Origin: an uncultured Oxalobacteraceae bacterium
GTDB lineage: Bacteria; Pseudomonadota; Gammaproteobacteria; Burkholderiales; Burkholderiaceae
Direction: 5' to 3'
Assembly (NCBI GenBank): GCA_946480015.1
Contig: CAMLIL010000104.1
Coordinates: 1-17,809 of the forward strand
Length of the DNA: 17,809 nucleotides
Below the pieces are notes generated by a model. The model was not told the DNA's origin and ran no database searches. It worked only from the letters and a program-made list of their open reading frames with translations. Below are positions 1 through 15,540 of the stretch, piece after piece. The first letter of the stretch is position 1. Every line of letters starts with the position of its first letter. Made by a program: the position numbers and the translations under genes.

Positions 1-793
1 CCGCCACCGTTTTGTCTGCCTGAACACCAGCTGCCACCGTGTGCGCTTCTTTCGGTGCAGTCTGCGCCAACACTTTTCCCAGCCTTGCGTCGAGTTCAAC
101 AAGCGCTTTTGGAATCTGCTTGAGGGCATCCTGCTGCAGCGCGTAAAATTTTCCCTCCCACTCTGCCAGTTTGACAATCGTCGCTTTGACCCTATCGAAA
201 TACCGCAGGCTTTCCAGATGTGTGCGCAGCGTCTTGACGATTTCGACAAGCTTGCCCGTGATTTCGCGCATGGCCTGCATCAGCGGCTTTTCGTACTTGG
301 CAAACTTGATTGCGCGCAAAAACTTTAAAATGTCGCCCTTGATGAATTTTTGCAGGAACTGCACCAGTTCCACCAGCTTAGACGCTTCCTTAATCAACAT
401 AAGCATGACCGCACGCAGTGCAGCGCCAAGTTCCGAGCCTGCGATGCCGCCAACTATAGCACCTACGCCCGCCGCCGCCGCACCGCCCGCGGCCATCGCG
501 ACCGGTAAGGCAATGACGATCAGGCAGGCACTTAGCAATACCCACTCCATGAGCTCTTCGCGCTTCTCAGGATGGTTCGCCAGCCGCAGAATGACAGCGA
601 CCGCATCGCGCGCGCTGGTGACGATGACAACGCCTGGAATAAAACTGACCAGCATATCGGCAACGATAGCCGACAGTGGCCGATGGTCGGCAAATTCGCC
701 AAAGAACACAGACTTGAGCCAGTCCATGCTGCCGACGACGTGGCCCCAAGCATCGTTCAGGATAGTGTGATGGTCCGGCGGTTGCTGGGTCAT
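1..793 (-). CDS. T6SS effector-like membrane-inserting protein, partial (3' end outside window)
   Basis: An open frame of 264 codons starts with ATG at 793 and runs without a stop to the window edge, so the C-terminus is missing. Its ATG overlaps the vgrG stop as ATGA, which suggests translational coupling. The visible protein begins MTQQPPDHHTILNDAW. It has hydrophobic stretches at about residues 41-71 and 84-128, the second a Gly/Ala-rich run (AAGGAAAAGVGAIVGGIAGS), followed by a Lys-rich helical region at about 135-245. N-terminal membrane-translocation helices directly behind vgrG are typical of T6SS cargo effectors whose toxic domain lies at the C-terminus; no toxin domain is visible here. 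Codons ending in A/T (TTA, CTA, ATA, AGG) are commoner than in the genes further right. Effector assignment is inference from context; a non-toxic adaptor is possible. Confidence 0.7.
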   Translation of the reverse strand, partial: MTQQPPDHHTILNDAWGHVVGSMDWLKSVFFGEFADHRPLSAIVADMLVSFIPGVVIVTSARDAVAVILRLANHPEKREELMEWVLLSACLIVIALPVAMAAGGAAAAGVGAIVGGIAGSELGAALRAVMLMLIKEASKLVELVQFLQKFIKGDILKFLRAIKFAKYEKPLMQAMREITGKLVEIVKTLRTHLESLRYFDRVKATIVKLAEWEGKFYALQQDALKQIPKALVELDARLGKVLAQTAPKEAHTVAAGVQADKTVA

Positions 794-3552
794 GCTTGAC
801 CTTTCGTTGTCGTGCTGCGCGGTGCCCAGTTCAGTAATTCGTGCACATCGTCATGTAATTCGGTGCTGACAGTGGAGCTTGCCTGTATCGGTTTGTAGTC
901 ATATTCAATCTTTGCGCCGACGCCTGCCGGTACGTCGCTGATGCGGGCAATGCCCAGGGCATCGAGCATTCCCTTGCGTATGCTGCCGTCACTCAACGTT
1001 GCTTTGTAGGCAGCGCCGGCTAATGGCGCTCCCCAATCGGTGAGATGACGAAACTCCACATCGGTCTTTTGTAATTCAGGTTTGAGCAAATGCGGCATCA
1101 CATACGACTTGGTCGCGGGCCCTGGCATGGTGTGCATCGAGGCCTCCGCGGTCCAGGTGCCGGACGTCCCGTTGGTAATGCCAGAGGCATTGATCTTCAC
1201 AAATGAGCCACCGGCGGAGATCATGACTTCTTCTTTGGCATGAATTTCAATGCGCGAGGTGGTCGATAGCAGGCGCACCACTTTTTCCGCGATAAGATCA
1301 AGGTCGTTGCTTTGCGCCTGTACTTCAACTTTGCCCTTGGCGGCAAATAATTTGATGCCGGCGTTAAAGGCGAACAGGCTGATTTTTTCAGCGACGCTGG
1401 CGAGCAGGCTTTTACCCACAGCTATATTGGTATCCATCCCCGACGACAGCGTCACTTCGGCGCCCGCATGAACGTGGGTGCCTTTGGCGCTGGCCAGAGC
1501 GATGCCAGCCGGGGACGCTGCCAGCAGTATCGGTTCTTTAAACCGGTTGGCACCGCCTTGCCCCTCGCCGTCATACCGGTCTTGCGTGGCGTCGATGAAG
1601 TGGTTGAGGGCATCCAGCCCGGCAAGCGCTTCCGCGCCTGCTTTTGATGCGGTATCGGACAGGCTTTTGCTGAGCGACGCGCCTGCTTTCAGCTGACTTG
1701 TAGCTTCAGTGGCGTCGAGCTGCGTGCCCTGGGGTCCAGGGCGGCCAAAGGTACTAAGGTATAGGCCCTTTTGCGTGACAATTGCACCGAAATCATCGGT
1801 GCTGAGTGCAAAACCCGACCCGTAAAAGTTATTTCGCTTGTTACCCTGCTGGCTGACCAGATAGCCGAGGTTCAGTTGCGCATGGGTATTGGTGCTATAG
1901 AGATGAACCCGGTTTTGCCTGGTTGTGTCATCAAGCACCAGCTGATTGAAACCATTGCCTTTGTATTCTTTGGACTTGTAGCCCGAGAGCTTGCCATCGG
2001 TATGCCATTGAGGTGCCTGATCGTCGTTATACAGTCGCCCGGTAACCACGGGCCGATCTGCATCGCCATCGAGAAAGGTGACGATGACCTCTTGCCGGAC
2101 GCGGGGCACATTGAGCCCACCCCAGCCTTGACCGGCATTAGGATAGCTGACACGCACCCAGCAGGAGGCGCGCTCGTCGCCGGGGTTTTGCCGGTCCCAG
2201 CGGAACTGGACTTTGACGCGGTTGAGGCGATCGGTGTAAATCTCTTCGCCTGCCGGGCCGACAACCACGGCAGTTTGCGGATGCAGCGTCGGTTTCGTGT
2301 GCTCGAACGGGCTACGGAACGGCACTTTACGGCGCTGGACTTCAATGCGGTTGAAACAATGGCCGGTGTGCTCGTTGCCTGCGAATTTTCCCAGGTTCGC
2401 CTCGCCTTGCGCCAGGTTGCGCCCCATGGCGGCTTTTGAGGCTTCCAACTGCGGCAAGAGGCTGCCGGGAAAGTCTTTCACTTTGTTTGAGAGCGGTAAG
2501 TTATTTTCGATGCACCATTCAACCGCAATGACAAAAAACTGACGGTCTTCGGGCGCATCAGACTGATGTGCCGGGTGGTCTTCAAGGGTGAACCAGCCGC
2601 CTACCGACAGAGAACGCACACCAGAAACGGCGGAGAACCGTTTCATGCTCGACTCCCACTGTTCTACCCGGAGTCGCGACTGTTTGTCTCCTTGCTCTTG
2701 TTTTGAATAGGTATACGCGCCGGTGTATTCGTATACTTCTAACTGGCCAGGTAGATCGCCATGCTCTCTGAGAACGAAGGTGTTGCTCTCCTTTACCTGG
2801 TTCGGCGCTTTGTAATCGTTGGTTCTGGCAGTAAATTGGCTGGGGGCCAAACTCCGGTCTGCGCTCCAGTGCACAATTTTGTGCACTTCGTCTTCGGTGC
2901 CTGCGCCGTGAAAGTAAATTTTTTCCTGAGCAATTGGCTTGAGCTGATACGTCGTATCGGTAATCACAAGCACATGACCAGAACCGTCGGCCTTGTGCTC
3001 GTGGTAGCTGTACCAGCCTTCTTCTTCCATCAACCGCTGGACGAAATGCCAGTCTGTCTCGTATTGGGTGCAATAAGAACGCTCGCGCGCAAGCTCCCTC
3101 ACATCAAAGCGGAAATTGCCCCGGGCCTGCGGATACCCGTTAAATACGTCACTGAGGATGTCGTCGGCTGTTTTGTCCTGCCATATCCGGGCATCTTTGC
3201 GAAATTTCAAAAAATGCAACCACGGCGCAAATGACATCTGGCAGAAAGTGAACTGTCCGTCACTGCCCAAGCGTTTCATCGTGTGCACATAACCATGGAC
3301 GGGTAAATAGCTACGATCAGCCTGCTGTATCCAAAGCGTTACGGGCTGTGCAATAAGCGTTTTAAGTTCGATATCGTCACGTACCGATAGGCAATCGATC
3401 GTGTACTCGTAACTTCTCCCCAGACGCTCGTGGGCGAGCACGCGTTGCGGTAGAAGGACATCTTCGCCGAGAGGGGTGGTTAATTTGACGAGGCGGGCCT
3501 GTTGGCCGACAAGCGCTTGGTTGAGAAACAGGAAGTTTTTCAGATCGGCCAT
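790..3552 (-). CDS. vgrG: Type VI secretion system spike protein VgrG (TssI) with C-terminal TTR-like extension
   Basis: This is the trimeric spike at the tip of the T6SS tube, which carries effectors into target cells. In order (about 920 residues from the chosen ATG): a gp27-like region at about 20-375, a gp5-like OB fold at about 425-515 (with GDERASCWVRV and GWGGLNVPRVRQEV), a DUF2345 needle region at about 580-810, and a C-terminal transthyretin-like module at about 830-890 starting near VEFRHLTDWGAPLAGA. Such modules in other VgrGs dock cognate effectors. The ATG at 3552 (MADLKNF) is preferred: GAGG lies 12 bases upstream, although spacing is long. An in-frame ATG at 3570 and a TTG at 3597 are alternatives. 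The stop overlaps the effector-like gene downstream. GC content is visibly below that of the rest of the window. Confidence 0.93.
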   Translation of the reverse strand: MADLKNFLFLNQALVGQQARLVKLTTPLGEDVLLPQRVLAHERLGRSYEYTIDCLSVRDDIELKTLIAQPVTLWIQQADRSYLPVHGYVHTMKRLGSDGQFTFCQMSFAPWLHFLKFRKDARIWQDKTADDILSDVFNGYPQARGNFRFDVRELARERSYCTQYETDWHFVQRLMEEEGWYSYHEHKADGSGHVLVITDTTYQLKPIAQEKIYFHGAGTEDEVHKIVHWSADRSLAPSQFTARTNDYKAPNQVKESNTFVLREHGDLPGQLEVYEYTGAYTYSKQEQGDKQSRLRVEQWESSMKRFSAVSGVRSLSVGGWFTLEDHPAHQSDAPEDRQFFVIAVEWCIENNLPLSNKVKDFPGSLLPQLEASKAAMGRNLAQGEANLGKFAGNEHTGHCFNRIEVQRRKVPFRSPFEHTKPTLHPQTAVVVGPAGEEIYTDRLNRVKVQFRWDRQNPGDERASCWVRVSYPNAGQGWGGLNVPRVRQEVIVTFLDGDADRPVVTGRLYNDDQAPQWHTDGKLSGYKSKEYKGNGFNQLVLDDTTRQNRVHLYSTNTHAQLNLGYLVSQQGNKRNNFYGSGFALSTDDFGAIVTQKGLYLSTFGRPGPQGTQLDATEATSQLKAGASLSKSLSDTASKAGAEALAGLDALNHFIDATQDRYDGEGQGGANRFKEPILLAASPAGIALASAKGTHVHAGAEVTLSSGMDTNIAVGKSLLASVAEKISLFAFNAGIKLFAAKGKVEVQAQSNDLDLIAEKVVRLLSTTSRIEIHAKEEVMISAGGSFVKINASGITNGTSGTWTAEASMHTMPGPATKSYVMPHLLKPELQKTDVEFRHLTDWGAPLAGAAYKATLSDGSIRKGMLDALGIARISDVPAGVGAKIEYDYKPIQASSTVSTELHDDVHELLNWAPRSTTTKGQA

Positions 3553-3689
3553 GGGGAAGGACTGCCTCATTTCTATTGAGTGAGCGAGCACGAGCAACGC
3601 ACACGCGATGAAATGTGGTAGTCCGCGTCGAAAAGTTCACAGGTATCAAAAATACAACCATGAAATTTTACTCATATCTTGTCCGGTCG

Positions 3690-4516: not shown

Positions 4517-4552
4517 CCAAGTGCGCCAAGTGCGCCAAGTGCGCCAAGTGCG
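4517..4552. repeat. Four perfect tandem copies of a 9-bp unit (CCAAGTGCG)
   Basis: Four exact copies of CCAAGTGCG stand head to tail directly upstream of the minus-strand coiled-coil gene and about 45 bases from the Fur box of the divergent operon. The unit is a multiple of three, so copy-number change would not shift a frame. If it were translated on the minus strand it would encode repeated Ala-His-Leu. It could alter spacing within the 5' leader or promoter of the small membrane genes. Confidence 0.85.
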
Positions 4553-4585
4553 CAGCATACCATCGGCGCCGCGCACGAGAACAAG

Positions 4586-4614
4586 TTGACTTGGTAAATG
4601 ATAATAGTTATCAT
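4586..4614 (+). promoter_or_regulatory. Sigma70 promoter of the PepSY/ApbE iron-reduction operon
   Basis: TTGACT (4586-4591) and TATCAT (4609-4614) are separated by exactly 17 bases, matching the housekeeping -35/-10 pattern closely. The predicted start of transcription is near 4621, about 20 bases before the ATG of the PepSY gene. The -10 element lies inside the Fur-box palindrome, so Fur binding would block polymerase directly. Confidence 0.75.
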
Positions 4615-4616
4615 TT
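4596..4616. promoter_or_regulatory. Fur box (ferric uptake regulator operator)
   Basis: AAATGATAA and TTATCATTT form a perfect 9-bp inverted repeat around TAG. The half-sites match the Fur consensus core TGATAAT/ATTATCA. It covers the spacer and -10 of the promoter above, the classic position for iron-dependent repression. The minus-strand membrane genes start about 97 bases away, so the same site might also affect them. Confidence 0.88.
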
Positions 4617-4641: not shown

Positions 4642-5286
4642 ATGCACACGCCCGCCACCCAGCAGCTTCCCAGCGCCAGCCGCGCCGCCTGGCTGAAGCA
4701 GCTGCATCGCTGGCACTGGATCAGTTCGGCGCTGTGCCTGTTCGCCATGCTGCTGTTCAGCCTGACGGGCATCACGCTCAACCACGCCGCGCAGATCGAA
4801 GCCAGGCCGCACACCGTCAACCGCAAGGCCGCCCTGCCCGCGCCGCTGCGCGAACAGCTGGCCGCCTTCGCGGCGGCCCATGCCGACCAGCGTGCTCCGC
4901 TGCCGGCGGCGATTGCGCGCTGGGCCGACGATCAATTCAAGCTCGACGTGGCCGGCCTGGAGGCCGAATGGACCGAGGAAGACGCCTACGTGCCGCTGGC
5001 GCGTCCGGGCGGCGACGCCTGGCTGCGCATCGGTGCCGACGGCGCGGCCGAATACGAAAAGACCGACCGCGGCTGGATATCCTGGCTCAACGATCTGCAC
5101 AAGGGCCGCAACACCGGTCCGGTATGGGCCTGGTTCATCGACCTGTTCGCCGTCGCCTGCGTCGTGTTTTGCGTGACCGGTTTCCTGATTATGAAAATGC
5201 ACGCGGCCAACCGCCGCGCTACCTGGCCCGTGATCGGCTTCGGCATTCTGCTGCCGCTGCTGCTCGCCCTACTCTTTATCCACTGA
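4642..5286 (+). CDS. PepSY-associated transmembrane protein (probable membrane electron-transfer subunit)
   Basis: 214 residues, first gene of the Fur-controlled operon. There are three membrane helices, at about 26-47, 161-184 and 195-213, with a loop at about 50-155 that carries a small PepSY-like domain. The segment LHRWHWISS before helix 1 (His22, His25), His48 after helix 1 and NDLHKGRNTGPVWAW before helix 2 (His153) are typical of PepSY_TM proteins; in related siderophore reductases such as FoxB, conserved His residues bind haem. By family and context it probably carries electrons across the inner membrane from the cytoplasmic reductase encoded by the fifth gene. The ATG at 4642 fits the promoter position; a much longer upstream open frame would run through the promoter and is rejected. 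Haem binding is inferred, not shown. Confidence 0.85.
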   Translation: MHTPATQQLPSASRAAWLKQLHRWHWISSALCLFAMLLFSLTGITLNHAAQIEARPHTVNRKAALPAPLREQLAAFAAAHADQRAPLPAAIARWADDQFKLDVAGLEAEWTEEDAYVPLARPGGDAWLRIGADGAAEYEKTDRGWISWLNDLHKGRNTGPVWAWFIDLFAVACVVFCVTGFLIMKMHAANRRATWPVIGFGILLPLLLALLFIH

Positions 5287-5294
5287 CACCGACC

Positions 5295-5804
5295 ATGAAA
5301 CTACAGCGCACGCTTGCCCTCACCCTTCCGATGCTCAGCAGCTGGGCTGTCGGCGCCGACCTGGCCGTCAAGTTCGAGATTCCCCAGCTGCAGGTGGCCG
5401 AATACCACCGTCCCTACGTGGCGATGTGGCTGGAGCGCGCCGACCAGAGCGTGGCGGCCAACCTGGCGGTGCTGTACGACGTCAAGAAGAAGGACAACGG
5501 CGGCACCAAGTGGGTCAAGGACCTGCGCACCTGGTGGCGCAAGGCCGGCCGCGATGTGGAACTGCCGCTGGACGGGGTCAGCGGCGCCACCCGCACGGTG
5601 GGCGAACACATCCTCACCTTCGGCGCCAAACAGGGCATCGACAAGCTGCCGCCCGGCGACTACAAGCTGGTGATCGAAGCGGCGCGCGAAGTTGGTGGGC
5701 GCGAACTGGTGCGCGTGCCGGTCACGCTGCCGGCCAAGGCCAAGCAAACCTTCACCGCGCACGGCAAGGAAGAACTGGGCGCAGTGACTGTGCAAGCCAA
5801 CTAG
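5295..5804 (+). CDS. DUF2271 exported protein with an ApbE-type flavinylation motif
   Basis: 169 residues with an N-terminal signal peptide (about 1-20, ending SSWAVGA). The mature part is a beta-rich DUF2271 domain, including YVAMWLERADQSVAANLAVL and KWVKDLRTWWRKAG. Residues 93-101 read DGVSGATRT, which matches the motif on which ApbE enzymes attach FMN through a phosphoester bond to Thr (as in NqrC and RnfG, D-x-x-[ST]-G-A-[ST]-x-T). The predicted acceptor is Thr99. An ApbE gene lies two genes downstream. I therefore read it as a periplasmic FMN carrier that receives electrons from the PepSY membrane protein, whose gene ends 8 bases upstream. DUF2271 has no firmly established function; the flavinylation is a strong prediction from motif plus context. 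Confidence 0.85.
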   Translation: MKLQRTLALTLPMLSSWAVGADLAVKFEIPQLQVAEYHRPYVAMWLERADQSVAANLAVLYDVKKKDNGGTKWVKDLRTWWRKAGRDVELPLDGVSGATRTVGEHILTFGAKQGIDKLPPGDYKLVIEAAREVGGRELVRVPVTLPAKAKQTFTAHGKEELGAVTVQAN

Positions 5805-5816
5805 GACGGGACCGAC

Positions 5817-6626
5817 ATGAACATCAAACACACACTTGCGCTGCTGGCCCTGGCCGTGTCGCTCGACGCATCCGCCCACCGCGGCTGGCTGTATCCTCAG
5901 CAGACCATGGTCGAAGGCAAGGAACCCTGGGTCACCATCGACGGCGCCATTTCCGAAGGCCTGTTCGACGTCGACCACATGCCGCTCAAACTCGACAACG
6001 CCACCGTCACCGATCCCGATGGTGTGAGCACGCCGGTCGCCAACGCCTACACCGGCAAGCAGCGCAGCACCTTCGACCTGAAGATGAGCAAGGACGGCAC
6101 CTATAAAATCGCGATCGTCAACAAGAGCGTCATGGCCAGCTACAAGGATGCCGGCGGCGAGATCAAGCGCTTCCGCGGCAGCGAAGAAGCATTCGCCAGG
6201 GAAGTGCCGGCCACCGCCCCGGAACTGAAGGCCACCTTCATGCACCAGCGCCTGGAAACCTTCGTCAGCGCAAACAAGACCAGCAACGGCGCGCTAAAGC
6301 CGAGCGGCAGCGGCCTGGAACTGGTCGCGCTGACCAATCCGACCGATCTGCGCAGCGGCGAAACCGCCAAATTCCGCTTCCAGCTGAACGGCAAGGCGCT
6401 GCCGAACTTCGCCTTCAGCCTGATTCCGGGCGGCGTGCGCTACCGCGGCGTGCTGGGCGAGATTCGCCTGAGCACCGATGCCAAAGGCGACGTCACCGTC
6501 AAGCTGCCGGCCTCCGGCATGTACTGGCTCAACGCCGGCTATCCGGTAACGTCCGACAAGGCTGCGCAGCCGGCCGACGGCCGCCGCTACAGCTACGCCG
6601 CGACGCTGGAAATCCTGCCGGAATAA
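5817..6626 (+). CDS. DUF4198 exported periplasmic protein
   Basis: 269 residues with a signal peptide ending ASA at residue 20, so the mature protein would begin His-Arg-Gly-Trp (HRGWLYPQQTMVEG), as is common in DUF4198 proteins. The body is beta-rich, with Ig-like or transthyretin-like character (VTIDGAISEGLFDVDHMPL; GDVTVKLPASGMYWLNAGY). DUF4198 members are often found next to metal transporters and are thought to be periplasmic metal-associated proteins. It starts 12 bases after the DUF2271 gene, within the same operon. It may bind metal or ferric ligand near the flavoprotein or stabilise it. The N-terminal His after cleavage could be a metal ligand, which is speculative. Confidence 0.82.
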   Translation: MNIKHTLALLALAVSLDASAHRGWLYPQQTMVEGKEPWVTIDGAISEGLFDVDHMPLKLDNATVTDPDGVSTPVANAYTGKQRSTFDLKMSKDGTYKIAIVNKSVMASYKDAGGEIKRFRGSEEAFAREVPATAPELKATFMHQRLETFVSANKTSNGALKPSGSGLELVALTNPTDLRSGETAKFRFQLNGKALPNFAFSLIPGGVRYRGVLGEIRLSTDAKGDVTVKLPASGMYWLNAGYPVTSDKAAQPADGRRYSYAATLEILPE

Positions 6627-6630
6627 GCAG

Positions 6631-7620
6631 GTGCACCCGGTACTGGTTCCGCTCGACATCCGGCCCGGCCTGCCCGCGCCGGGCAGCAGCATGCACCAGC
6701 TGTCGGGCGCCAGCATGGGCACCACCTGGAGCGCGCGCGTGATGGCGCCTCCCGCTGCGGCGCTGGAGTTGAGCGCGCTGCTGCAGCACGCCTTGAACGA
6801 GGTGGTGGCGCAGATGAGCCACTGGGAGCCCGGATCGAACCTGAGCCGCTACAACGTGGCGCACGCCGGCAGCTGGCACACCCTGCCCGATGAATTCTTC
6901 GAAGTGCTCACTTATGCACTACGCATAGCGCAGGACAGCGGCGGCGCTTACGATCCCTGCGCCGGCGCGCTGGTCAACGCCTGGGGCTTCGGCGCCGACG
7001 GGCGCTATAACCAGCCCGGCTTTCAGGCGCCACCGCACGCCCTGCCGCCCGCGCCGCGCCTGACCATGGAAATCGATCACGCACGGCGGCGCGTGCTGCA
7101 GCCCGGCGGCGTGCAGCTGGACCTGTCCTCGGTCGCCAAAGGATACGCGGTCGACCTGATGGCGCAGCGCCTCGCAGCCCAGGGCCTCGAACACTATCTG
7201 GTGGAACTGGGCGGCGAGCTGCGCGGCGCCGGCGTCAAGCCGGACGGCCAGCCATGGTGGGTCGCCATCGAAGGCGTGCCCGACGCCGGCGCGGCCGGCG
7301 CAGCCAGGGTGGCCCTGCACGGCCTGGCGCTGGCCACATCGGGCGACTACCGCCGCTATTTCCAGTACGGCGCGCGGCGCGCCGCGCATACGATCGATCC
7401 GCGCACCGGGGCACCGGTCGACCATCGGATTGCCGCGGTCAGCGTGCTGCACGCCGAGTGCATGGCGGCCGATGCGCTGTCGACCGCGCTGACCGTGCTC
7501 GGACCGGAACAAGGCCTCGCCTTCGCCGAAGCGCGCCAGCTGGCCGCACGCTTCCTGCTGCGCGATGGCGGCGCCATTCGCGAAATCCAGACCAGCGCCT
7601 GGCGCGCCATGCTGCAATGA
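6631..7620 (+). CDS. apbE: FAD:protein FMN transferase (ApbE family)
   Basis: 329 residues. ApbE cleaves FAD and attaches FMN to Thr of exported flavoproteins with Mg2+. Visible family signatures are GASMGTTW near 26-33, GGAYDPCAGALVNAWGFG at 104-121, LDLSSVAKGYAVD at 163-175, LVELGGELRGAG at 190-201, ATSGDYRRYF at 235-244, HTIDPRTGAPV at 253-263 and AADALSTA at 279-286, whose Asp is the usual metal ligand. The start is a GTG at 6631, only 4 bases after the DUF4198 stop; an internal ATG at 6691 is the alternative. Neither form has a signal peptide or lipobox, unlike most Gram-negative ApbE proteins. The obvious substrate is the DUF2271 protein. The stop overlaps the next gene's start (ATGA), so translation is probably coupled. 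Confidence 0.92.
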   Translation: MHPVLVPLDIRPGLPAPGSSMHQLSGASMGTTWSARVMAPPAAALELSALLQHALNEVVAQMSHWEPGSNLSRYNVAHAGSWHTLPDEFFEVLTYALRIAQDSGGAYDPCAGALVNAWGFGADGRYNQPGFQAPPHALPPAPRLTMEIDHARRRVLQPGGVQLDLSSVAKGYAVDLMAQRLAAQGLEHYLVELGGELRGAGVKPDGQPWWVAIEGVPDAGAAGAARVALHGLALATSGDYRRYFQYGARRAAHTIDPRTGAPVDHRIAAVSVLHAECMAADALSTALTVLGPEQGLAFAEARQLAARFLLRDGGAIREIQTSAWRAMLQ

Positions 7621-8933
7621 TCAGTGCCGATCCCACCCGCTGGGCGCTGGCGGCAGGCGCCCTGCTCAGCTACGGCGCCCTGTGCATGGCCATGCTGCGC
7701 CAGCGCGCCGCCCCAGGCGCGCCAGCCGGCGAGCATGACTGGCTGGTGGCCTACGCCAGCCAGACCGGCACCGCCGAATTCTTCGCCGAACGCAGCGCCG
7801 CGCGCCTGCGCGCGGGCGGGCTGCATGCGCGCGCCGTCAGCGTCGACCGGCTCGATCCTGCCAGCCTGCGCGGCGATGCGCGCATCCTGTTCATCGTCAG
7901 CACCTATGGCGAAGGCGATGCGCCCGACAGCGCGGCCAGGCTGATGCGCATTCTCGCCGCATCCGAACTCCGCCTGGACCGGCTGCACTACGCCGTGCTG
8001 GCACTGGGCGACAGCAGCTACGCCCAATTCTGCGGCTTCGGCCGCCAGCTCGACGCCAGCCTGAAGGCGCTGGGCGCGCACAGCCTGTTCGAGCGCATCG
8101 AGGCTGACCGCAGCGCGCCCGAGGCGCTGGCCGCGTGGCAGGAGCAGCTTGGCCGGCTGGCCAATTTCGGCGACGACGCCGACTGGAGCGCCCCCGCGCC
8201 CTCGACCTGGCGCATCGCGGCGCGCACGCTGATGAACCCGGGCAGCGCCGGCGCCCCGGTCTATCAAGTCATTCTCACCCCGGACGGCGCGCTGCCGGCA
8301 TGGCAGGCGGGCGATCTGGCCGATGTCAGCGTGCCGGACGATCGGGCCTATCCGCGCGCGTATTCGATCGCGTCCATCGCCAGCGAAGGCCACCTTGCCC
8401 TGCTGGTGCGCCTGCACGTGCGCGAGGACGGCGCGCCGGGCCTCGCGTCCAGCCTGCTCTGCGTGTCCGGCGCAACCGAGGTCGCGCTGCGCATCCGCCC
8501 GCACCAGCGCTTTCGCATCGGCGACAACGGCGCGCGCCCGCTGATCCTGATCGGCAACGGCACCGGCATGGCCGGCCTGCGCGCCCATCTGAAAGCGCGC
8601 GTCCAGGCAGGCCAGCGGCGCAACTGGCTGATCTACGGCGAACGCAACGCCGCCCACGACGCCCTGTACGGCGCCGAGACCGCCGCCTGGCAGCTCGACA
8701 AACTCAGCCTGGCCTACTCGCGCGACGGCGGCCCGGTGCGCTATGTGCAGCATGCGATCGAGCGCGAAGCCGAGGCCGTGCGCGCCTGGGTGCGCGACGG
8801 CGCGGCCATCTATGTGTGCGGCAGCCTGCAGGGCATGGCCGCCGGCGTGCACGACGCCTTGACCGCCGCGCTGGGCGAGCAATTGCTGGCCGAACTGGAC
8901 GAAACCGGCCGCTACCGGCGCGACGTGTATTAA
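7617..8933 (+). CDS. Membrane-anchored diflavin reductase (flavodoxin plus FAD/NAD(P)H domains; CysJ-like)
   Basis: 438 residues. An N-terminal membrane helix at about 8-27 is followed by a flavodoxin domain (FMN loop SQTGTAE at 48-54; STYGEGDAPD at 95-104; LGDSSYAQFCGF at 130-141) and a ferredoxin-NADP reductase module (FAD motif RAYSIAS at 247-253; nucleotide-binding GNGTGMAGLR at 313-322; IYVCGS at 398-403; C-terminal Tyr). It is shorter than sulfite reductase alpha subunit or P450 reductase, as is usual for the PepSY-linked forms. It should oxidise NAD(P)H in the cytoplasm and pass electrons through FMN to the PepSY membrane protein. The ATG at 7617 overlaps the apbE stop; a longer upstream frame antisense to no gene but overlapping apbE is rejected. 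Last gene before the second Fur promoter. Confidence 0.9.
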   Translation: MISADPTRWALAAGALLSYGALCMAMLRQRAAPGAPAGEHDWLVAYASQTGTAEFFAERSAARLRAGGLHARAVSVDRLDPASLRGDARILFIVSTYGEGDAPDSAARLMRILAASELRLDRLHYAVLALGDSSYAQFCGFGRQLDASLKALGAHSLFERIEADRSAPEALAAWQEQLGRLANFGDDADWSAPAPSTWRIAARTLMNPGSAGAPVYQVILTPDGALPAWQAGDLADVSVPDDRAYPRAYSIASIASEGHLALLVRLHVREDGAPGLASSLLCVSGATEVALRIRPHQRFRIGDNGARPLILIGNGTGMAGLRAHLKARVQAGQRRNWLIYGERNAAHDALYGAETAAWQLDKLSLAYSRDGGPVRYVQHAIEREAEAVRAWVRDGAAIYVCGSLQGMAAGVHDALTAALGEQLLAELDETGRYRRDVY

Positions 8934-8941
8934 TTTGGATG

Positions 8942-8972
8942 AATGAGAACGTTGTTGATAACGATTCTCATT
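8942..8972. promoter_or_regulatory. Fur box region upstream of the siderophore receptor
   Basis: The core TGATAACGATTCTCA (8956-8970) matches 13 of 15 positions of the 7-1-7 Fur pattern TGATAAT-N-ATTATCA. An outer inverted repeat, AATGAGAA (8942-8949) with TTCTCATT (8965-8972), surrounds it, suggesting two overlapping Fur dimer sites. The site ends at the -35 of the receptor promoter, 79 bases upstream of the receptor ATG. Confidence 0.8.
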
Positions 8973-9050: not shown

Positions 9051-11330
9051 ATGTCACTGATCAAACGCCGCAAACACGCTGTTTCCCCGCTTAACCAGGT
9101 CGGCGCCATCGCCGCGCTGCTGATGCCGATCGCCGCGCAAGCGGCCGATGCGCCGCCACCGGCCCGCACCATGCAGGAAATCCAGGTGAACGCCAAGGCG
9201 GAAAATGACTTCAAGGCCGAGAAAGCCTCCTCGCCCAAATACACCGAAGCGCTGGTCGATACCGCGCAGACCATCAGTGTCATCAAGAAGGAACTGATCC
9301 AGCAGCAAGGCGCCGTCAGCCTGACCGAAGCCTTGCGCAACACGCCCGGCGTGGGCGCCTTCTTCCTGGGTGAAAACGGCAGCACCAGCACCGGCGACGC
9401 CATCTACATGCGCGGCTTCGATTCCTCGACCAGCATCTACGTCGACGGCGTGCGCGACGTCGGTTCGATCTCGCGCGACGTGTTCAACATCGACCAGATC
9501 GACGTGCTCAAAGGTCCGGCCGGCACCGACAATGGCCGCGCCTCGCCCACCGGCGCGGTCAACCTGGTCAGCAAGCAGGCCAATCTGGAGCAGGCGCTCA
9601 GCGGCACCGTGCAGTTCGGCAGCGCCGAGCAGAAGCGCGGCACCCTGGACGTGAACCACGTGATCGACGCCGACAAGGGCATCGCCTTTCGCCTGAACGC
9701 CCTGGCGCAGGACAGCGGCAATCCGGCGCGCGACCTGGTCAAGAACAAGCGCTGGGCGCTGGCGCCGTCGGTGGCCTTCGGCCTCGGCAAACCCACCCGC
9801 GTGCTGGTCAATTACCTGCACGTGGACCAGGACAATGTGCCGGACGGCGGCGTGCCGACCATCGGCCTGCCCGGCTACTCGTCGCCGGACCCGGCCCGCC
9901 CGTTCCTGTCGCAGGCCAAACCGGTCGATGCGAGCGGCTACTACGGCGCCGCGTCGGACTACGACAAGGTCAAGGCCGACATGTTCACCGTGAAGGTCGA
10001 GCACGACTATTCGCGCACCTTCAAGCTGCAGAACACCACCCGTTACGGCAAGACCGAGCAGAACTACCTGCTGTCGTCGTTCACCGTGACGGCCGCCAAT
10101 CTGCTCACGCCCGACCCCGCCGACCCGGCCACCTGGACCTTGAACCGCGCCAGCCGCACGGTGAAAAACCAGACCAACAAGATCCTGACCAACCAGACCG
10201 TCGGCACGCTCGACCTGGACACCGGCGCCCTGCACCACACCCTGGTGGGCGGCCTGGAATTCACCCAGGAAAAGCAGTACAACTTCGGCCTGGGCGGCAC
10301 CGGCGTGATGAACAGGGACCCGATCTACGCGCCCAATCCATGGTCGGCCATGACAGCCTTCAATCCAGTGCCGAACGGCGTGTTCCAGGACGCCAAGGTC
10401 GACACCCAGAGCGTCTACCTGTTCGACACCATCAGGCTGGGCGAACAGTGGATCTTCACCGCCGGCGCCCGCGCCGACCACTTCAAGATCGATTACAGCG
10501 CGGCGGCCCTGTCGACCGCCACCAGCAACCCGACGCTGCCGGTCGGCACCCTGCTGGCGCCGGTCGCCCTGTCGCTCGGCGACACCGTCGGCAACGGCAA
10601 GCTGTCGCTGCTCTACAAGCCGACCCCGACCAGCAGCGTGTACGGTACGGTATCGACCTCGAAGATGCCACCGGGCACCAATGTCGCCCTGTCGACCAGC
10701 GCCAACAACCTGGCCAATCCGCAATACGATCCGCAGGCAGCCACCACGCTCGAGCTGGGCGGCAAGATCGACCTGCTCCAGCAGAAGCTGAGTTTGACGG
10801 CCGCCGTCTACCGCACCACGGTCAAGAACGAACTGGAACAGGACCCGGTCGATCTGCTGTACTACCAGACCGGCAAGAAGCGCGTGCAGGGCGTCGAACT
10901 GGGCGTGACCGGCGCCATCACCCGCAACTGGCTGGTCAGCGCCGGCTATGCCCGCATGGACACCGAAGTCACCGACGGCAAGGCCGTCACCGCCATCGGC
11001 AACCGCGCCCTGTCGTACACGCCGAAAGACAGCTTCACGGCCTGGACCTCGTACAACATCACCCCGGCCTTCAAGGTCGGCGGCGGCGCGCGCTACGTCG
11101 GCAAGCTGTATCGCGGCACCGACGGCGCCATCGGCACCCCGGCCTTCGCCGACGCCTACTGGGTGGTCGACGCCATGGCCACCTACACGGTCAACCCGCA
11201 CCTCGATCTGCAGCTGAACGTGTACAACGTGGCCGACAAGGAGTACATTGCGGCGATTAACAAGAGCGGCTACCGCTACACCCCGGGCGCGCCGCGTTCG
11301 GCCAGCGTGACCGCCAATTTCCGCTTTTAA
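9051..11330 (+). CDS. fiu: TonB-dependent catecholate siderophore receptor, Fiu-like
   Basis: 759 residues. A signal peptide (about 1-31, ending PIAAQA) is followed by a TonB-box-like segment MQEIQVNA (41-48), a plug domain ([60 protein letters not shown]) and a beta-barrel ending in the usual terminal Phe (SVTANFRF). There is no N-terminal signalling (FecA-type) extension, so it is not a trans-envelope sensor. Plug sequence and the piuC neighbour recall E. coli Fiu (fiu-ybiX), which imports ferric dihydroxybenzoylserine and related catecholates. The ATG at 9051 has AAGAGAA upstream; an earlier in-frame start would lie within the promoter. The exact ligand cannot be read from sequence; the gene symbol rests on resemblance and context. 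Confidence 0.9.
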
Positions 11331-11361: not shown

Positions 11362-12039
11362 ATGATGCTGCATATCCCGAACGTCCTGACGCGCGACCAG
11401 GTAGCGGCCATGCGCCGCGCCCTGGATGGCGCCGACTGGACCGACGGGCGCGCAACCGTGGGCGAGCAAGGCGCCCAGGTCAAGCACAACCGCCAGCTGC
11501 CGCAAGCGTCCCCCCTGTGCCGTACCCTCGGGGAAACCGTGCAGGCGGCGCTGGCCGCCAATCCGCTGTATTTCGCCGCGGCGCTGCCGCTGCGCAGCTC
11601 GCCGCCGCTGTTCAACGCCTATTCCGGCGGCGAGCATTACGGCGACCATGTCGACGGCGCGATCCGCATCACGCCCGGAGCGCCTGCGGTGCGCACCGAT
11701 GTCTCCTGCACCCTGTTCCTGAGCGATCCCGAGGACTACGACGGCGGTGCGCTGGTCGTCAACGACAGCTATGGCGCGCACGAAGTCAAGCTGCCCGCCG
11801 GCGACATGATCGTCTATCCCTCCTCCAGCGTGCACCAGGTCGAACCGGTCACGCGCGGCATGCGCGTGTGTTCCTTCTTCTGGGTGCAAAGCATGGTGCG
11901 CGACGATGCGCGCCGCGCCCTGCTGCTCGACCTGGACCGCACCATCGTCGGCCTGCGCGCCAAAACCGGCGACTGCCCCGAGCTGGTCAGCCTGACCGGC
12001 CACTATCACAACCTGCTCAGGATGTGGGCCGAAGTCTGA
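11362..12039 (+). CDS. piuC: PKHD-type Fe(II)/2-oxoglutarate-dependent hydroxylase PiuC (YbiX)
   Basis: 225 residues, the usual length for PiuC/YbiX. The metal-binding triad is visible as His96-x-Asp98 ([13 protein letters not shown]) and His158 ([11 protein letters not shown]), with Arg168 ([13 protein letters not shown]) as the 2-oxoglutarate-binding residue. These enzymes are regularly encoded beside Fiu/PiuA-type iron receptors and are induced by iron limitation, but the substrate is not settled; modification of a siderophore is a common suggestion. It follows the receptor by 31 bases, so is probably co-transcribed from the Fur-regulated promoter. ATG codons at 11362 and 11365 are both possible starts, and there is no obvious Shine-Dalgarno sequence, which suggests translation dependent on the upstream gene. 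Confidence 0.92.
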
Positions 12040-12729: not shown

Positions 12730-13314
12730 ATGAAACGGATCGTCTCGTCGCTGGCGCTCGCTATGGGCATGCTGGCGAGTTCAGCTTTTGCTGCCACCAC
12801 CACCTACCGCGCGGTCGCCAGCGGACCGGGTGAGGTCACACCCAACCCGTCGCCGGGCTACAGCATCGCCACCATCGTCATCGACGACGTGGCCGGCACC
12901 ATGCAGGTCACGTCGCCGTTCCAGGATTTGCTCGCCCCCACCACGGACGCCCACATCCATTGCTGCACGGCGGCGCCCTTGGTCGGCGCCGCAGGGGTGG
13001 CCACGCCGCTGACCGGCTTTCCGCTCGGCGTCACCGACGGCGCCTATTCGCACCTGTTCGACCTGAACAGTTCGGCCACGTACAGCGCCGCCTTCCTCAG
13101 CGCCGCCGGCGGCACCGCCGACGCTGCGCGCGACACGCTGCTGGGCGGCATCGTGGCCCACGAGGCCTATCTGAACATTCATTCGAGCCTGTATCCCGGC
13201 GGCGAAATTCGCGGCTTCCTGGTGGCCCTGCCGGTGCCTGAACCGTCGCAATACGCCATGCTCGGCATCGGCCTGGCCGGCGTCGCTTTCATGGCACGCA
13301 AAAAGAAGCAGTAA
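12730..13314 (+). CDS. CHRD domain protein with PEP-CTERM sorting signal
   Basis: 194 residues. A signal peptide (1-21, ending SSAFA) precedes a CHRD domain at about 23-160, recognisable by TTYRAVASGPGEVTPNPSPG, DAHIHCCTA, GLSEH-type spacing and AYLNIHSSLYPGGEIRGFLV. The C-terminus has the PEP-CTERM signal: VPEPSQ (169-174), a membrane helix, and the basic tail RKKKQ. Such proteins are cleaved by an exosortase, encoded elsewhere, and end up at the cell surface or in the matrix, often in exopolysaccharide-producing bacteria. The ribosome binding site GGGAGA lies 6 bases before ATG. The gap upstream (12599-12729) is relatively AT-rich and probably contains the promoter, though no clear elements stand out. 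CHRD function is largely unknown; the CHRD domain occurs in chordin. Confidence 0.9.
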   Translation: MKRIVSSLALAMGMLASSAFAATTTYRAVASGPGEVTPNPSPGYSIATIVIDDVAGTMQVTSPFQDLLAPTTDAHIHCCTAAPLVGAAGVATPLTGFPLGVTDGAYSHLFDLNSSATYSAAFLSAAGGTADAARDTLLGGIVAHEAYLNIHSSLYPGGEIRGFLVALPVPEPSQYAMLGIGLAGVAFMARKKKQ

Positions 13315-13405: not shown

Positions 13406-14887
13406 TTGAAATTCTCCATCGGCCACCGCCTGTTCGCCGCCGTCCTGCTGGCCATCCTGGCCGTGACCGCCACCGGCATCGCGCTGATGCGCCATCATCT
13501 GCTGGCCAGCTTCTCGTCCTATGCCGTGCAGATCGAACTGGACCGGCTGCAGCAATTGTCCGATGCGCTGGCCGACCGCTACCAGAGCTCGCCCGGCTGG
13601 GCATTTCTTCCCGCCGACAGCCAGGCGCGCCGCAACTGGATCGGCGAAGAACTCGCGCGGCTGCAGGCCGGCATACCGGTACCGCCGACACCGCCTGCAC
13701 CGCCGCTCGAACCCACGCCCCTGAACGCCGCCGCGCCGCCCCTGCCGCCGCTGCCTCCTCCGGCGGTCGTGCCGGTCCCGCCGGGAATGATCGCCGACCT
13801 CGACATGCTCGGCCTGCAGGACCGCATTACCCTGCTTGATGCCGATGGCCGTTATCTGGCCGGACGTCCTGCGGGCAACGAAGCGCAGGCGCGCCGCGCT
13901 GTCACGGTCAAAGGGCGCACGGTAGCCTATCTTTCGGTGGCACAGGTGGCGCGGCCGCGCGACGCCTTGGCCAGCGCCTTCCTGGACCGGATCCGCAGCA
14001 GCCTGCTGCTGATCGTGGCGGTCAGCGTGGCCTTGAGCGCACTGCTGGCCACCGTGCTGGCTGCACACTTCCGCAAACCGATCCAGCAGCTGGCCGACGG
14101 CGCCCGCGCGCTGGCCGACGGCCGTTACGACACCCGGCTCGCCTTGAGCCGCAGCGACGAACTGGGCGAACTTGCGCAGCGCTTCAACCAGATGGCCGTC
14201 AAGCTGGGCGAGATGGAAGCGGGCCGGCGCCAATGGGTCGCCGACACGTCGCACGAACTGCGCACGCCGCTATCGGTATTGCGCGCCCAGCTTGAAGCGA
14301 TGCAGGATGGCGTGCGCAGCGCCACGCCGGAAGGCCTCGCATCGATGCTGCGCCAGGTACTGGCCCTGAACAAACTGATCGACGAGCTGTACGCGCTGGC
14401 ACAGGCCGACATCGGCCAGCTCGACTTCCACTTTGTCCGCGTCGATGCGTGGCAGCTGGCGGCCGAGGCCGCCGCCGCGTTCGGCCACAAGCTGGAAGCG
14501 GCCGGCCTGGCATTGACGCTGGCGAGCGCACCCTCGACCGCGGTAGTCAAGGCCGATCCCGACCGCTTGCGCCAGGTGTTCGCGAACCTGTTCGAAAACG
14601 CCATGCGCTACACAGCCGCACCTGGGCGCATCGGGCTTGGCGCGCACGCTGCCGATGGCATGCTGACCATCGTCATCGACGACAGCGCGCCAGGCGTACC
14701 GGACCAGGCGCTTGGCCGCCTGGGAGAACGCTTTTACCGCGTCGAAGGATCGCGCAGCCGCGCGCATGGCGGCGCTGGCCTGGGGCTGGCGCTTTGCCAG
14801 CGCATCGTGGCCGCGCACGACGGCAGGCTCACCTTTGGCCATGCGCCGCTGGGCGGGCTGCGCGTGTCGATCGCCCTGCCGCTATGA
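13406..14887 (+). CDS. baeS: BaeS-like sensor histidine kinase with a polyproline periplasmic insert
   Basis: 493 residues. Membrane helix 1 is at about 9-28 and helix 2 at about 197-219; between them is a periplasmic sensor of some 165 residues. HAMP follows at about 220-273. The phospho-acceptor H-box is WVADTSHELRTPLSVLRAQLEAM with His283; the N-box contains Asn398 (LFENAMRYT), and the ATP lid motifs are DDSAPGVP (425-432), RFYRVEGSR and GGAGLGLAL (455-463). The H-box resembles BaeS, the envelope-stress and metal/flavonoid-responsive kinase. Oddly, residues 90-127 of the sensor are a polyproline tract (PVPPTPPAPPLEP and PPLPPLPPPAVVPVPPG). The start is TTG at 13406; no in-frame ATG is nearby. 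Its stop overlaps the regulator's ATG. Sensor ligand unknown. Confidence 0.9.
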   Translation: MKFSIGHRLFAAVLLAILAVTATGIALMRHHLLASFSSYAVQIELDRLQQLSDALADRYQSSPGWAFLPADSQARRNWIGEELARLQAGIPVPPTPPAPPLEPTPLNAAAPPLPPLPPPAVVPVPPGMIADLDMLGLQDRITLLDADGRYLAGRPAGNEAQARRAVTVKGRTVAYLSVAQVARPRDALASAFLDRIRSSLLLIVAVSVALSALLATVLAAHFRKPIQQLADGARALADGRYDTRLALSRSDELGELAQRFNQMAVKLGEMEAGRRQWVADTSHELRTPLSVLRAQLEAMQDGVRSATPEGLASMLRQVLALNKLIDELYALAQADIGQLDFHFVRVDAWQLAAEAAAAFGHKLEAAGLALTLASAPSTAVVKADPDRLRQVFANLFENAMRYTAAPGRIGLGAHAADGMLTIVIDDSAPGVPDQALGRLGERFYRVEGSRSRAHGGAGLGLALCQRIVAAHDGRLTFGHAPLGGLRVSIALPL

Positions 14888-15540
14888 GTACCCGCATCTA
14901 CATCGTCGAAGACGAAGCGGAACTGGCCGCGCTGATCGCCGACTACGCGCGCCTGAACGGCTACACCGCCAGCGTATTCGGCAACGGCAGCGAAGCGCTG
15001 GCGGCGGTGAAGGACGCGCGACCCGGCCTGATCGTGCTTGACCTGATGCTGCCCGGCCTGGATGGCCTGAGCCTGTGCCGCGAAGTGCGTGCGTTCAGCG
15101 ATGTACCGATCATCATGGTCACCGCGCGCGTCGAGGAAATCGACCGGCTGCTCGGGCTCGAAACCGGTGCCGACGACTACCTCTGCAAGCCCTTCAGCCC
15201 GCGCGAACTGATGGCCCGCATCAAGGTGATCCTGCGGCGCGTGCAGCCGGCGGCGGCAACGCCCGCGCTCGTGGTCGATGCGGCCGGCCTGCGGGTGAGC
15301 GTCAAGGGCCAGCCGGTGGCGCTGACGCCGACCGAATTTCATCTGCTGGCGGCGATGGCGCGCCGGCCCGGCCAGGTGTTCACGCGCGCCCAGCTGCTCG
15401 ACATTGCGCGCCACGACAGCCTGGACGTCACCGACCGCGCCATCGATAGCCACATCAAGAATTTGCGCCGCAAAATCGGCGCGGTGCTGCCTGACGCCAT
15501 CGGCTCGGTCTACGGATTGGGATACCGGCTGGATCTGTAG
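14884..15540 (+). CDS. baeR: BaeR-like OmpR-family response regulator
   Basis: 218 residues. The receiver domain (about 4-115) has the acidic pair Glu9/Asp10, the phospho-acceptor Asp53 (LIVLDLMLPGLDG), Thr80 (IIMVTA) and Lys102 (YLCKPFSPREL). The winged-helix DNA-binding domain is at about 125-216 (LTPTEFHLLAAMARRPGQVF; DRAIDSHIKNLRRKIG; GSVYGLGYRLDL). It overlaps the kinase gene by ATGA, so the pair is translated together. Together with the BaeS-type H-box, the sequence suits BaeR, although other OmpR-family regulators cannot be excluded. A BaeR-box-like sequence lies directly downstream, ahead of a small exported protein that is a natural target. Confidence 0.9.
   Translation: MSTRIYIVEDEAELAALIADYARLNGYTASVFGNGSEALAAVKDARPGLIVLDLMLPGLDGLSLCREVRAFSDVPIIMVTARVEEIDRLLGLETGADDYLCKPFSPRELMARIKVILRRVQPAAATPALVVDAAGLRVSVKGQPVALTPTEFHLLAAMARRPGQVFTRAQLLDIARHDSLDVTDRAIDSHIKNLRRKIGAVLPDAIGSVYGLGYRLDL

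Follow-up and report, generated by a model that had tools for sequence, protein, structure and literature searches.

The DUF2271 protein encoded in the stretch of DNA analysed here (17,809 nucleotides from an uncultured Oxalobacteraceae bacterium, hereafter the window) is very probably, judging from its sequence and from analogy with relatives, an exported electron carrier, with FMN predicted to be held covalently on Thr99 through the ApbE transferase of the same operon. In the window itself, this reading rests on the genes and their order, on the conservation of the acceptor motif, on Fur-like boxes and on the intact active site of ApbE; for flavinylation at this Thr, regulation by iron and Fur, and sensitivity to chelators, it rests on analogy with relatives, as described in published text passages. 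A sequence-only reading had proposed a periplasmic flavoprotein carrier with FMN on Thr99, and the proposal finds support in a relative flavinylated at the matching Thr, according to the text of PMC8238504. DUF2271-FMN would be the periplasmic end of an electron path serving iron starvation. Electrons would move from NAD(P)H to a flavodoxin-reductase (7617-8933), hence to a haem-binding PepSY-like protein, to DUF2271-FMN and eventually to ferric iron, which would enter through a Fiu-type receptor. We infer the flavinylation of the window protein, the direction of electron flow, the haem of the PepSY-like protein and the role of ferric catecholates as acceptor. The part worth following up is the ApbE, in which no recognisable signal peptide was found; what would matter is the place where the flavinylation reaction occurs.

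Organization of the locus

Five genes on the plus strand encode, in this order, a PepSY-like membrane protein, the DUF2271 protein, a DUF4198 protein, ApbE and a flavodoxin/NAD-binding reductase, and are separated by gaps of 12 bases at most or overlap by 4 bases. The genes of a Fiu-type receptor and then of a PKHD dioxygenase come after the reductase gene, on the same strand. The PepSY-like protein (4642..5286) matches PF16357 (E 2.5e-76, 256.5 bits against a cut-off of 27) and PF03929 (E 2.4e-11), and by its sequence is a probable haem-b transmembrane electron carrier. In an alignment of 130 PepSY-like rows His25 and His153 are present in all, His214 in 94%, His48 in 92%, His187 in 87% and His22 in 78%; the conservation of the first two is in keeping with the haem-binding histidines of FoxB described in the text of PMC11334425. 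The DUF2271 protein (5295..5804) is 169 aa long and matches PF10029 (E 3.3e-48, 163.3 bits against a cut-off of 27.3). The DUF4198 protein (5817..6626; PF10670, E 2.7e-48) has a leader core of 2.46, is probably exported and is possibly involved in metal handling. ApbE (6631..7620; PF02424, E 2.7e-77), which has a GTG start and the N-terminus MHPVLVPLDI, is encoded two genes downstream of the DUF2271 gene, as the sequence-only reading had it. The gene of the reductase (7617..8933; PF00258, E 6.4e-29; PF00175, E 2.9e-08) starts 4 bases inside the end of apbE; its product shows, by eye, a hydrophobic segment at the N-terminus and is the probable cytosolic electron donor.

The receptor gene (9051..11330), whose start was placed at ATG 9051, encodes a catecholate siderophore receptor of the Fiu type (NCBIfam NF007349, 983 bits, cut-off 686). 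The adjoining gene (11362..12039) encodes a PKHD-type 2OG/Fe(II) dioxygenase of the YbiX/PiuC/CciO kind (NCBIfam NF003975, 337 bits, cut-off 180; PF18331 and PF13640). A Fiu equivalog and a PKHD dioxygenase hence lie side by side as a pair, and a PepSY-like membrane protein is clustered with ApbE and DUF2271, as in PepSY-like flavinylation systems. The closest named proteins are mostly from Massilia. Elsewhere, the window hosts a long ORF on the minus strand (790-3597) which we take to encode a type VI secretion tip protein of the VgrG kind, a presumably exported protein with a PEP-CTERM-like tail, VPEPSQYAMLGIGLAGVAFMARKKKQ (12730-13314), and adjoining genes (13406-15540) which we assume to encode a sensor histidine kinase and a response regulator.

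Fur-like sites

A Fur-box-like palindrome, AATGATAATAGTTATCATT (4597..4615, plus strand), ends 26 bases before the start codon of the PepSY-like gene. Fur sites may be described by a 7-1-7 core of 15 bases or by the 19-base E. coli consensus. The core fits the palindrome with one mismatch; no match to the full 19-base consensus was found at up to three mismatches. The pattern used for the palindrome was shaped on the sequence of the window, and therefore only scans counting mismatches to the core are to be taken as tests for Fur. Of 79 related loci scanned in this way, 58 have a core with at most three mismatches before the PepSY-like gene, whereas 46 of 1580 random stretches taken from these loci contain one. 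Upstream of the operon, a tandem 9-base unit, AAGTGCGCC, is repeated by eye in nearly four copies (4519-4553).

A second, weaker Fur-like box (8954..8972, plus strand), with two mismatches in the core (8956-8970), lies before the receptor gene. The same core was found in three of the four loci tested (L001, L002, L003), and a version with four mismatches in the fourth (L004). The sequence-only reading had envisaged a single Fur-controlled operon. The Fur-like box before the PepSY-like gene holds, but with a second Fur-like site ahead of the receptor gene, two units under Fur appear likelier for these seven genes than a single operon. Judging from sequence, a separate Fur-controlled start is probable for receptor and dioxygenase.

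The acceptor motif of DUF2271 proteins

The ORF at 5295-5804 carries the claimed motif, D93-G-V-S96-G-A-T99-R-T101, the predicted FMN acceptor Thr99 being codon 5589-5591. Among the seven cluster proteins scanned, the pattern D-x-x-[ST]-G-[AP]-[ST] occurs in the DUF2271 protein alone (DGVSGAT, residues 93-99); a looser near-match, DLRSGET, is found at residue 177 of the DUF4198 protein. A signal peptide at the N-terminus of the DUF2271 protein is probable: a leader is visible by eye, but its hydropathy core is weak (1.32) and fails the 1.6 cut-off, which 60 of 64 separate DUF2271 proteins reach. The structural model (mean pLDDT 72.3) has eight strands and a helix (66-83). The loop hosting the motif (93-98) has pLDDT values below 50, as would suit an acceptor loop exposed on the surface. 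A sequence search for a solved relative gave no credible match (one at E 0.49), and matches to solved structures were weak.

Conservation of the motif was monitored in 398 genomes of the phylum to which a Massilia genome belongs; 68 PF10029 domains above cut-off were found, in 65 of these genomes. Overall, 78 DUF2271 places were listed, and the 10 below the Pfam cut-off were excluded from every count; domain positions were taken from Pfam matches, our own profile having missed 7 of the 68. The acceptor position is Thr or Ser in all 68 domains (Thr in 54, Ser in 14), Asp is found at position 93 in 61, and [ST]-x-[AP]-[ST] in 66, the exceptions being L164, which is fused to ApbE, and L181. The motif thus exceeds chance. 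Pro replaces Ala before Thr in 16 of the 68 domains (L117, L119, L120, L122, L123, L125, L126 and others).

The sequence-only reading had proposed, as a test, conservation of the motif specifically beside apbE, and such specificity is rejected. Thr or Ser is found in 47 of 47 domains with ApbE within 9 kb and in 21 of 21 without; for the strict form [ST]-G-A-[ST] the figures are 27 of 47 (fusions included) and 11 of 21. The acceptor is kept in both groups because every DUF2271 genome sampled has an ApbE somewhere. All 65 DUF2271 genomes have a match to ApbE, and in the full set of 398, those 65 included, 290 have one over cut-off (Fisher p 3e-10 for the 65 against the other 333). The equal retention of the acceptor in loci with no ApbE inside 9 kb might suggest that the motif is structural, and that DUF2271 works without a covalent flavin. 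Such a role is scarcely credible in view of the ApbE found in each of the 65 genomes, of the placement of the motif in a loop modelled with very low confidence outside the core of the fold, and of the flavinylation of a relative at the matching position (text of PMC8238504).

Neighbours were scored within 9 kb of the 68 DUF2271 loci by our own profiles: PepSY-like matches were found at 50, DUF4198 at 53, ApbE at 47 (4 fused) and reductase-like proteins at 47. A PKHD gene lies within the same distance in 22 of the 68 loci. Thirteen loci (L169-L180, L182) host a second type of DUF2271, with the motif [DNS]-G-x-[ST]-G-A-S. Our own profiles detected no PepSY-like or DUF4198 match there; all 13 have an adjoining reductase-like match, and 11 have a leaderless ApbE at a distance of 2.1-2.2 kb.

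ApbE proteins lacking a leader

The ApbE of the window has the PF02424 profile, the fold and the catalytic Ser, His and Asp, with an intact active site. At its N-terminus (6631-6714) neither a recognisable signal peptide nor a lipobox was found, a point that the sequence-only reading had not noticed, and the residues before the MGT motif include no uncharged hydrophobic core and no Cys. Leaders were scored by a hydropathy rule of our own, with a main cut-off of 1.6, complemented by inspection by eye and not by SignalP. At this cut-off, a leader core was found in 1 of 43 separate ApbEs linked to DUF2271 against 55 of 68 unlinked ApbEs, and raising the cut-off to 2.0 leaves 1 of the 43 and 51 of the 68 (Fisher p 2e-15). 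Of these 68, 20 were the best-scoring entries of a ranked list and lean to classical lipoproteins; 19 of them pass at all cut-offs between 1.2 and 2.0. The other 48 comprise every further ApbE match of the 65 genomes, with two fragments from a single genome taken as one. Within these 48, 19 of 20 pass; in a mixed last set of 28, for which the tested stretch was defined slightly differently, 17 pass at 1.6 and 13 at 2.0. Eleven of the 28 have no core at 1.6, and 9, mostly short or divergent, are leaderless by eye. The leaderless form is therefore not unique to DUF2271 clusters.

A leader core at 1.6 is present in 41 of the 43 DUF2271 proteins beside linked separate ApbEs. Among 74 ApbEs from close loci 8, 2, 1 and 0 pass at 1.2, 1.6, 1.8 and 2.0, respectively (L035 is the one passing at 1.8), and no leader core at 2.0 was found in the 120 database ApbEs among the matches listed. 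Fused ApbE-DUF2271 proteins have a leader core in 4 of 4 cases at 1.6 and in 3 of 4 at 2.0. Two ApbEs from Andreprevotia (P0121, P0122) have no leader core. In close relatives the leaderless ApbE is marked by the N-terminus M-R-R-V-[LF]-[IVL]-P; the form M-R-R-V-L-[IVL]-P is found in 61 of 74 close relatives, and in only 11 of 43 linked ApbEs of the wider sample. Some sources name these close relatives, which share the short N-terminal motif, thiamine biosynthesis lipoprotein.

A tree of 93 ApbEs, rooted by midpoint only, requires three label changes, which may be gains or losses, to accommodate the linked leaderless rows. These fall in separate places, and the leaderless form occupies two separate parts of the tree. 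Linked ApbEs of the second DUF2271 type, 11 rows in all, group together in a single clade (support 100/100) next to the unlinked ones. Discussion of a leaderless ApbE beside DUF2271 was not found in text passages of the openly licensed literature; a supplementary table of Meheust et al. 2021, which holds signal-peptide predictions, may already show this form.

Place of the flavinylation reaction

Since the ApbE of the operon has no recognisable signal peptide, we propose, tentatively and at somewhat less than an even chance, that FMN is attached to DUF2271 in the cytosol by this dedicated enzyme, before export. According to this view, ApbE would modify the DUF2271 preprotein, and the flavinylated chain would then leave the cell interior via Sec. 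A motif of seven residues suffices for ApbE, according to text of a review (PMC12052999), and an unfolded preprotein could thus be a substrate. This, together with the many genomes which host a single ApbE, favours cytosolic attachment. Opposing evidence comes from known ApbEs, periplasmic as a rule, from the signal peptide that the authors name for the Amantichitinum ursilacus enzyme (PMC8238504) and from an early complementation test, cited in the same review, in which the cytosolic version of another ApbE failed. The occurrence of leaderless ApbE-like proteins away from DUF2271 also weighs against a cytosolic step, as does the weak leader of the window DUF2271 protein, and no sign of a special export route was seen.

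Two candidate signs of such a route were rejected. Tat export of pre-flavinylated DUF2271 is not a general route, as 3 of 42 sequences, one of which has a doubtful start, carry Arg-Arg among their 10 N-terminal residues. Weaker leaders in DUF2271 proteins beside leaderless ApbEs were not apparent either, hydropathy being not clearly lower than in the others (p 0.12), which gives no sign of a special route. The same comparison for DUF4198 leaders, meant as a control, showed a difference (medians of 2.44 and 2.07, p 3.4e-5); such leader comparisons therefore carry effects of lineage or method.

A leaderless ApbE could instead be exported to the periplasm in a way not recognised here, through a non-classical route or together with a partner protein, and flavinylate DUF2271 there as in other systems. 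This would accord with the typical location of ApbE, membrane-anchored in the periplasm in the words of the review (PMC12052999). Moreover, where a linked separate ApbE is missing, the genome has an ApbE at another place; 19 of 20 such ApbEs have a leader core, which leaves room for modification of DUF2271 itself in the periplasm. The hypothesis is rather unlikely, given that a core at 2.0 is missing from 42 of the 43 linked ApbEs, from all 74 of the close loci and from all 120 database ApbEs listed, and that the first 20 residues of the ApbE model (pLDDT block means 88 and 91) look folded rather than leader-like.

The enzyme might also serve another, cytosolic protein, DUF2271 being flavinylated by a different ApbE or never. 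A cytosolic ApbE with a cytosolic substrate, the fumarate reductase of Klebsiella, is described in the review passages (PMC12052999), and the near-match of the DUF4198 protein could be seen as a target, though that protein is itself probably exported. Such an arrangement is improbable. In 29 of the 43 genomes with a linked ApbE no other ApbE match was found in the assembly examined, which is the sense in which an ApbE is called single here, and none of the 29 has a FMN_bind match. In turn, FMN_bind matches occur in 20 of the other 22 DUF2271 genomes, and the remaining two (G308, G225) have fused ApbE-DUF2271 proteins. The restriction of the pattern D-x-x-[ST]-G-[AP]-[ST] to DUF2271 within the window cluster, and the acceptor Thr/Ser kept in all 68 domains, argue in the same direction.

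The covalent flavinylation of exported carriers is generally placed outside the membrane, where FAD is then needed. If the ApbE is cytosolic, iron-starved cells would load the flavin first and export the finished carrier; no FAD would be needed outside the membrane, and the question of the periplasmic FAD supply would fall away in these systems. Attachment in the cytosol before export would make DUF2271, to our knowledge, the first such exported protein.

Comparison with known systems

Flavinylation of a DUF2271 protein has already been published. In the text of Meheust et al. 2021 (PMC8238504), the A. ursilacus protein is flavinylated in the presence of its cognate ApbE, and a T-to-A change abolishes the modification. 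The apbE used is described as signal-peptide-truncated, which implies that the authors took that ApbE as exported. The system resembles that of the window in the Pfam domain, in the [ST]-G-A-[ST] acceptor and in the presence of apbE in the same cluster; it differs in the species and in the signal peptide named by its authors, which the window ApbE lacks. The 2021 survey, which the sequence-only reading had cited without being sure of its coverage, does include clusters of PepSY-like, DUF2271, DUF4198 and ApbE proteins: according to its text, PepSY-like clusters often contain ApbE, DUF2271 (2833 clusters) and DUF4198 (1500). These systems share with the window PF16357, ApbE, DUF2271, a secreted DUF4198 protein, a link to Fur and, in some, a TonB receptor. 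In contrast, the window has a separate gene for a flavodoxin-type reductase, followed by the Fiu receptor and the PKHD dioxygenase.

In other published passages, a model of a flavinylated DUF2271 protein of Shewanella is shown (mSystems 2024, PMC11334425), and DUF4198/DUF2271 pairs of Alteromonas rise under iron limitation (PMC7190382); nothing on DUF2271 was found in the passages of PMC12424826, PMC6037834, PMC9045290 and PMC13038864. The Klebsiella pneumoniae enzyme of the review (PMC12052999) is, like the window ApbE, without a signal peptide. Its substrate is a soluble cytosolic fumarate reductase, whereas the presumed substrate in the window is exported.

The Caulobacter locus, as presented in the text of PMC3751524 and PMC11870441, encodes a transporter, DUF2271, DUF4198, ApbE and a sulfite-reductase-like flavoprotein in identical order. 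The genes CC_3059-3063 are included in a table of iron-responsive/Fur genes (PMC3751524); CCNA_03155-03159 are a direct Fur target, and insertions in them lower fitness in EDTA (PMC11870441). A Fiu-related receptor works with a dioxygenase in Caulobacter as well (PMC11870441), but the two genes (CCNA_00028, CCNA_00027) reside at another locus, and in the window they directly follow. The window thus adds one member, from a Massilia-like bacterium, in which the electron path and the Fiu/dioxygenase pair stand side by side.
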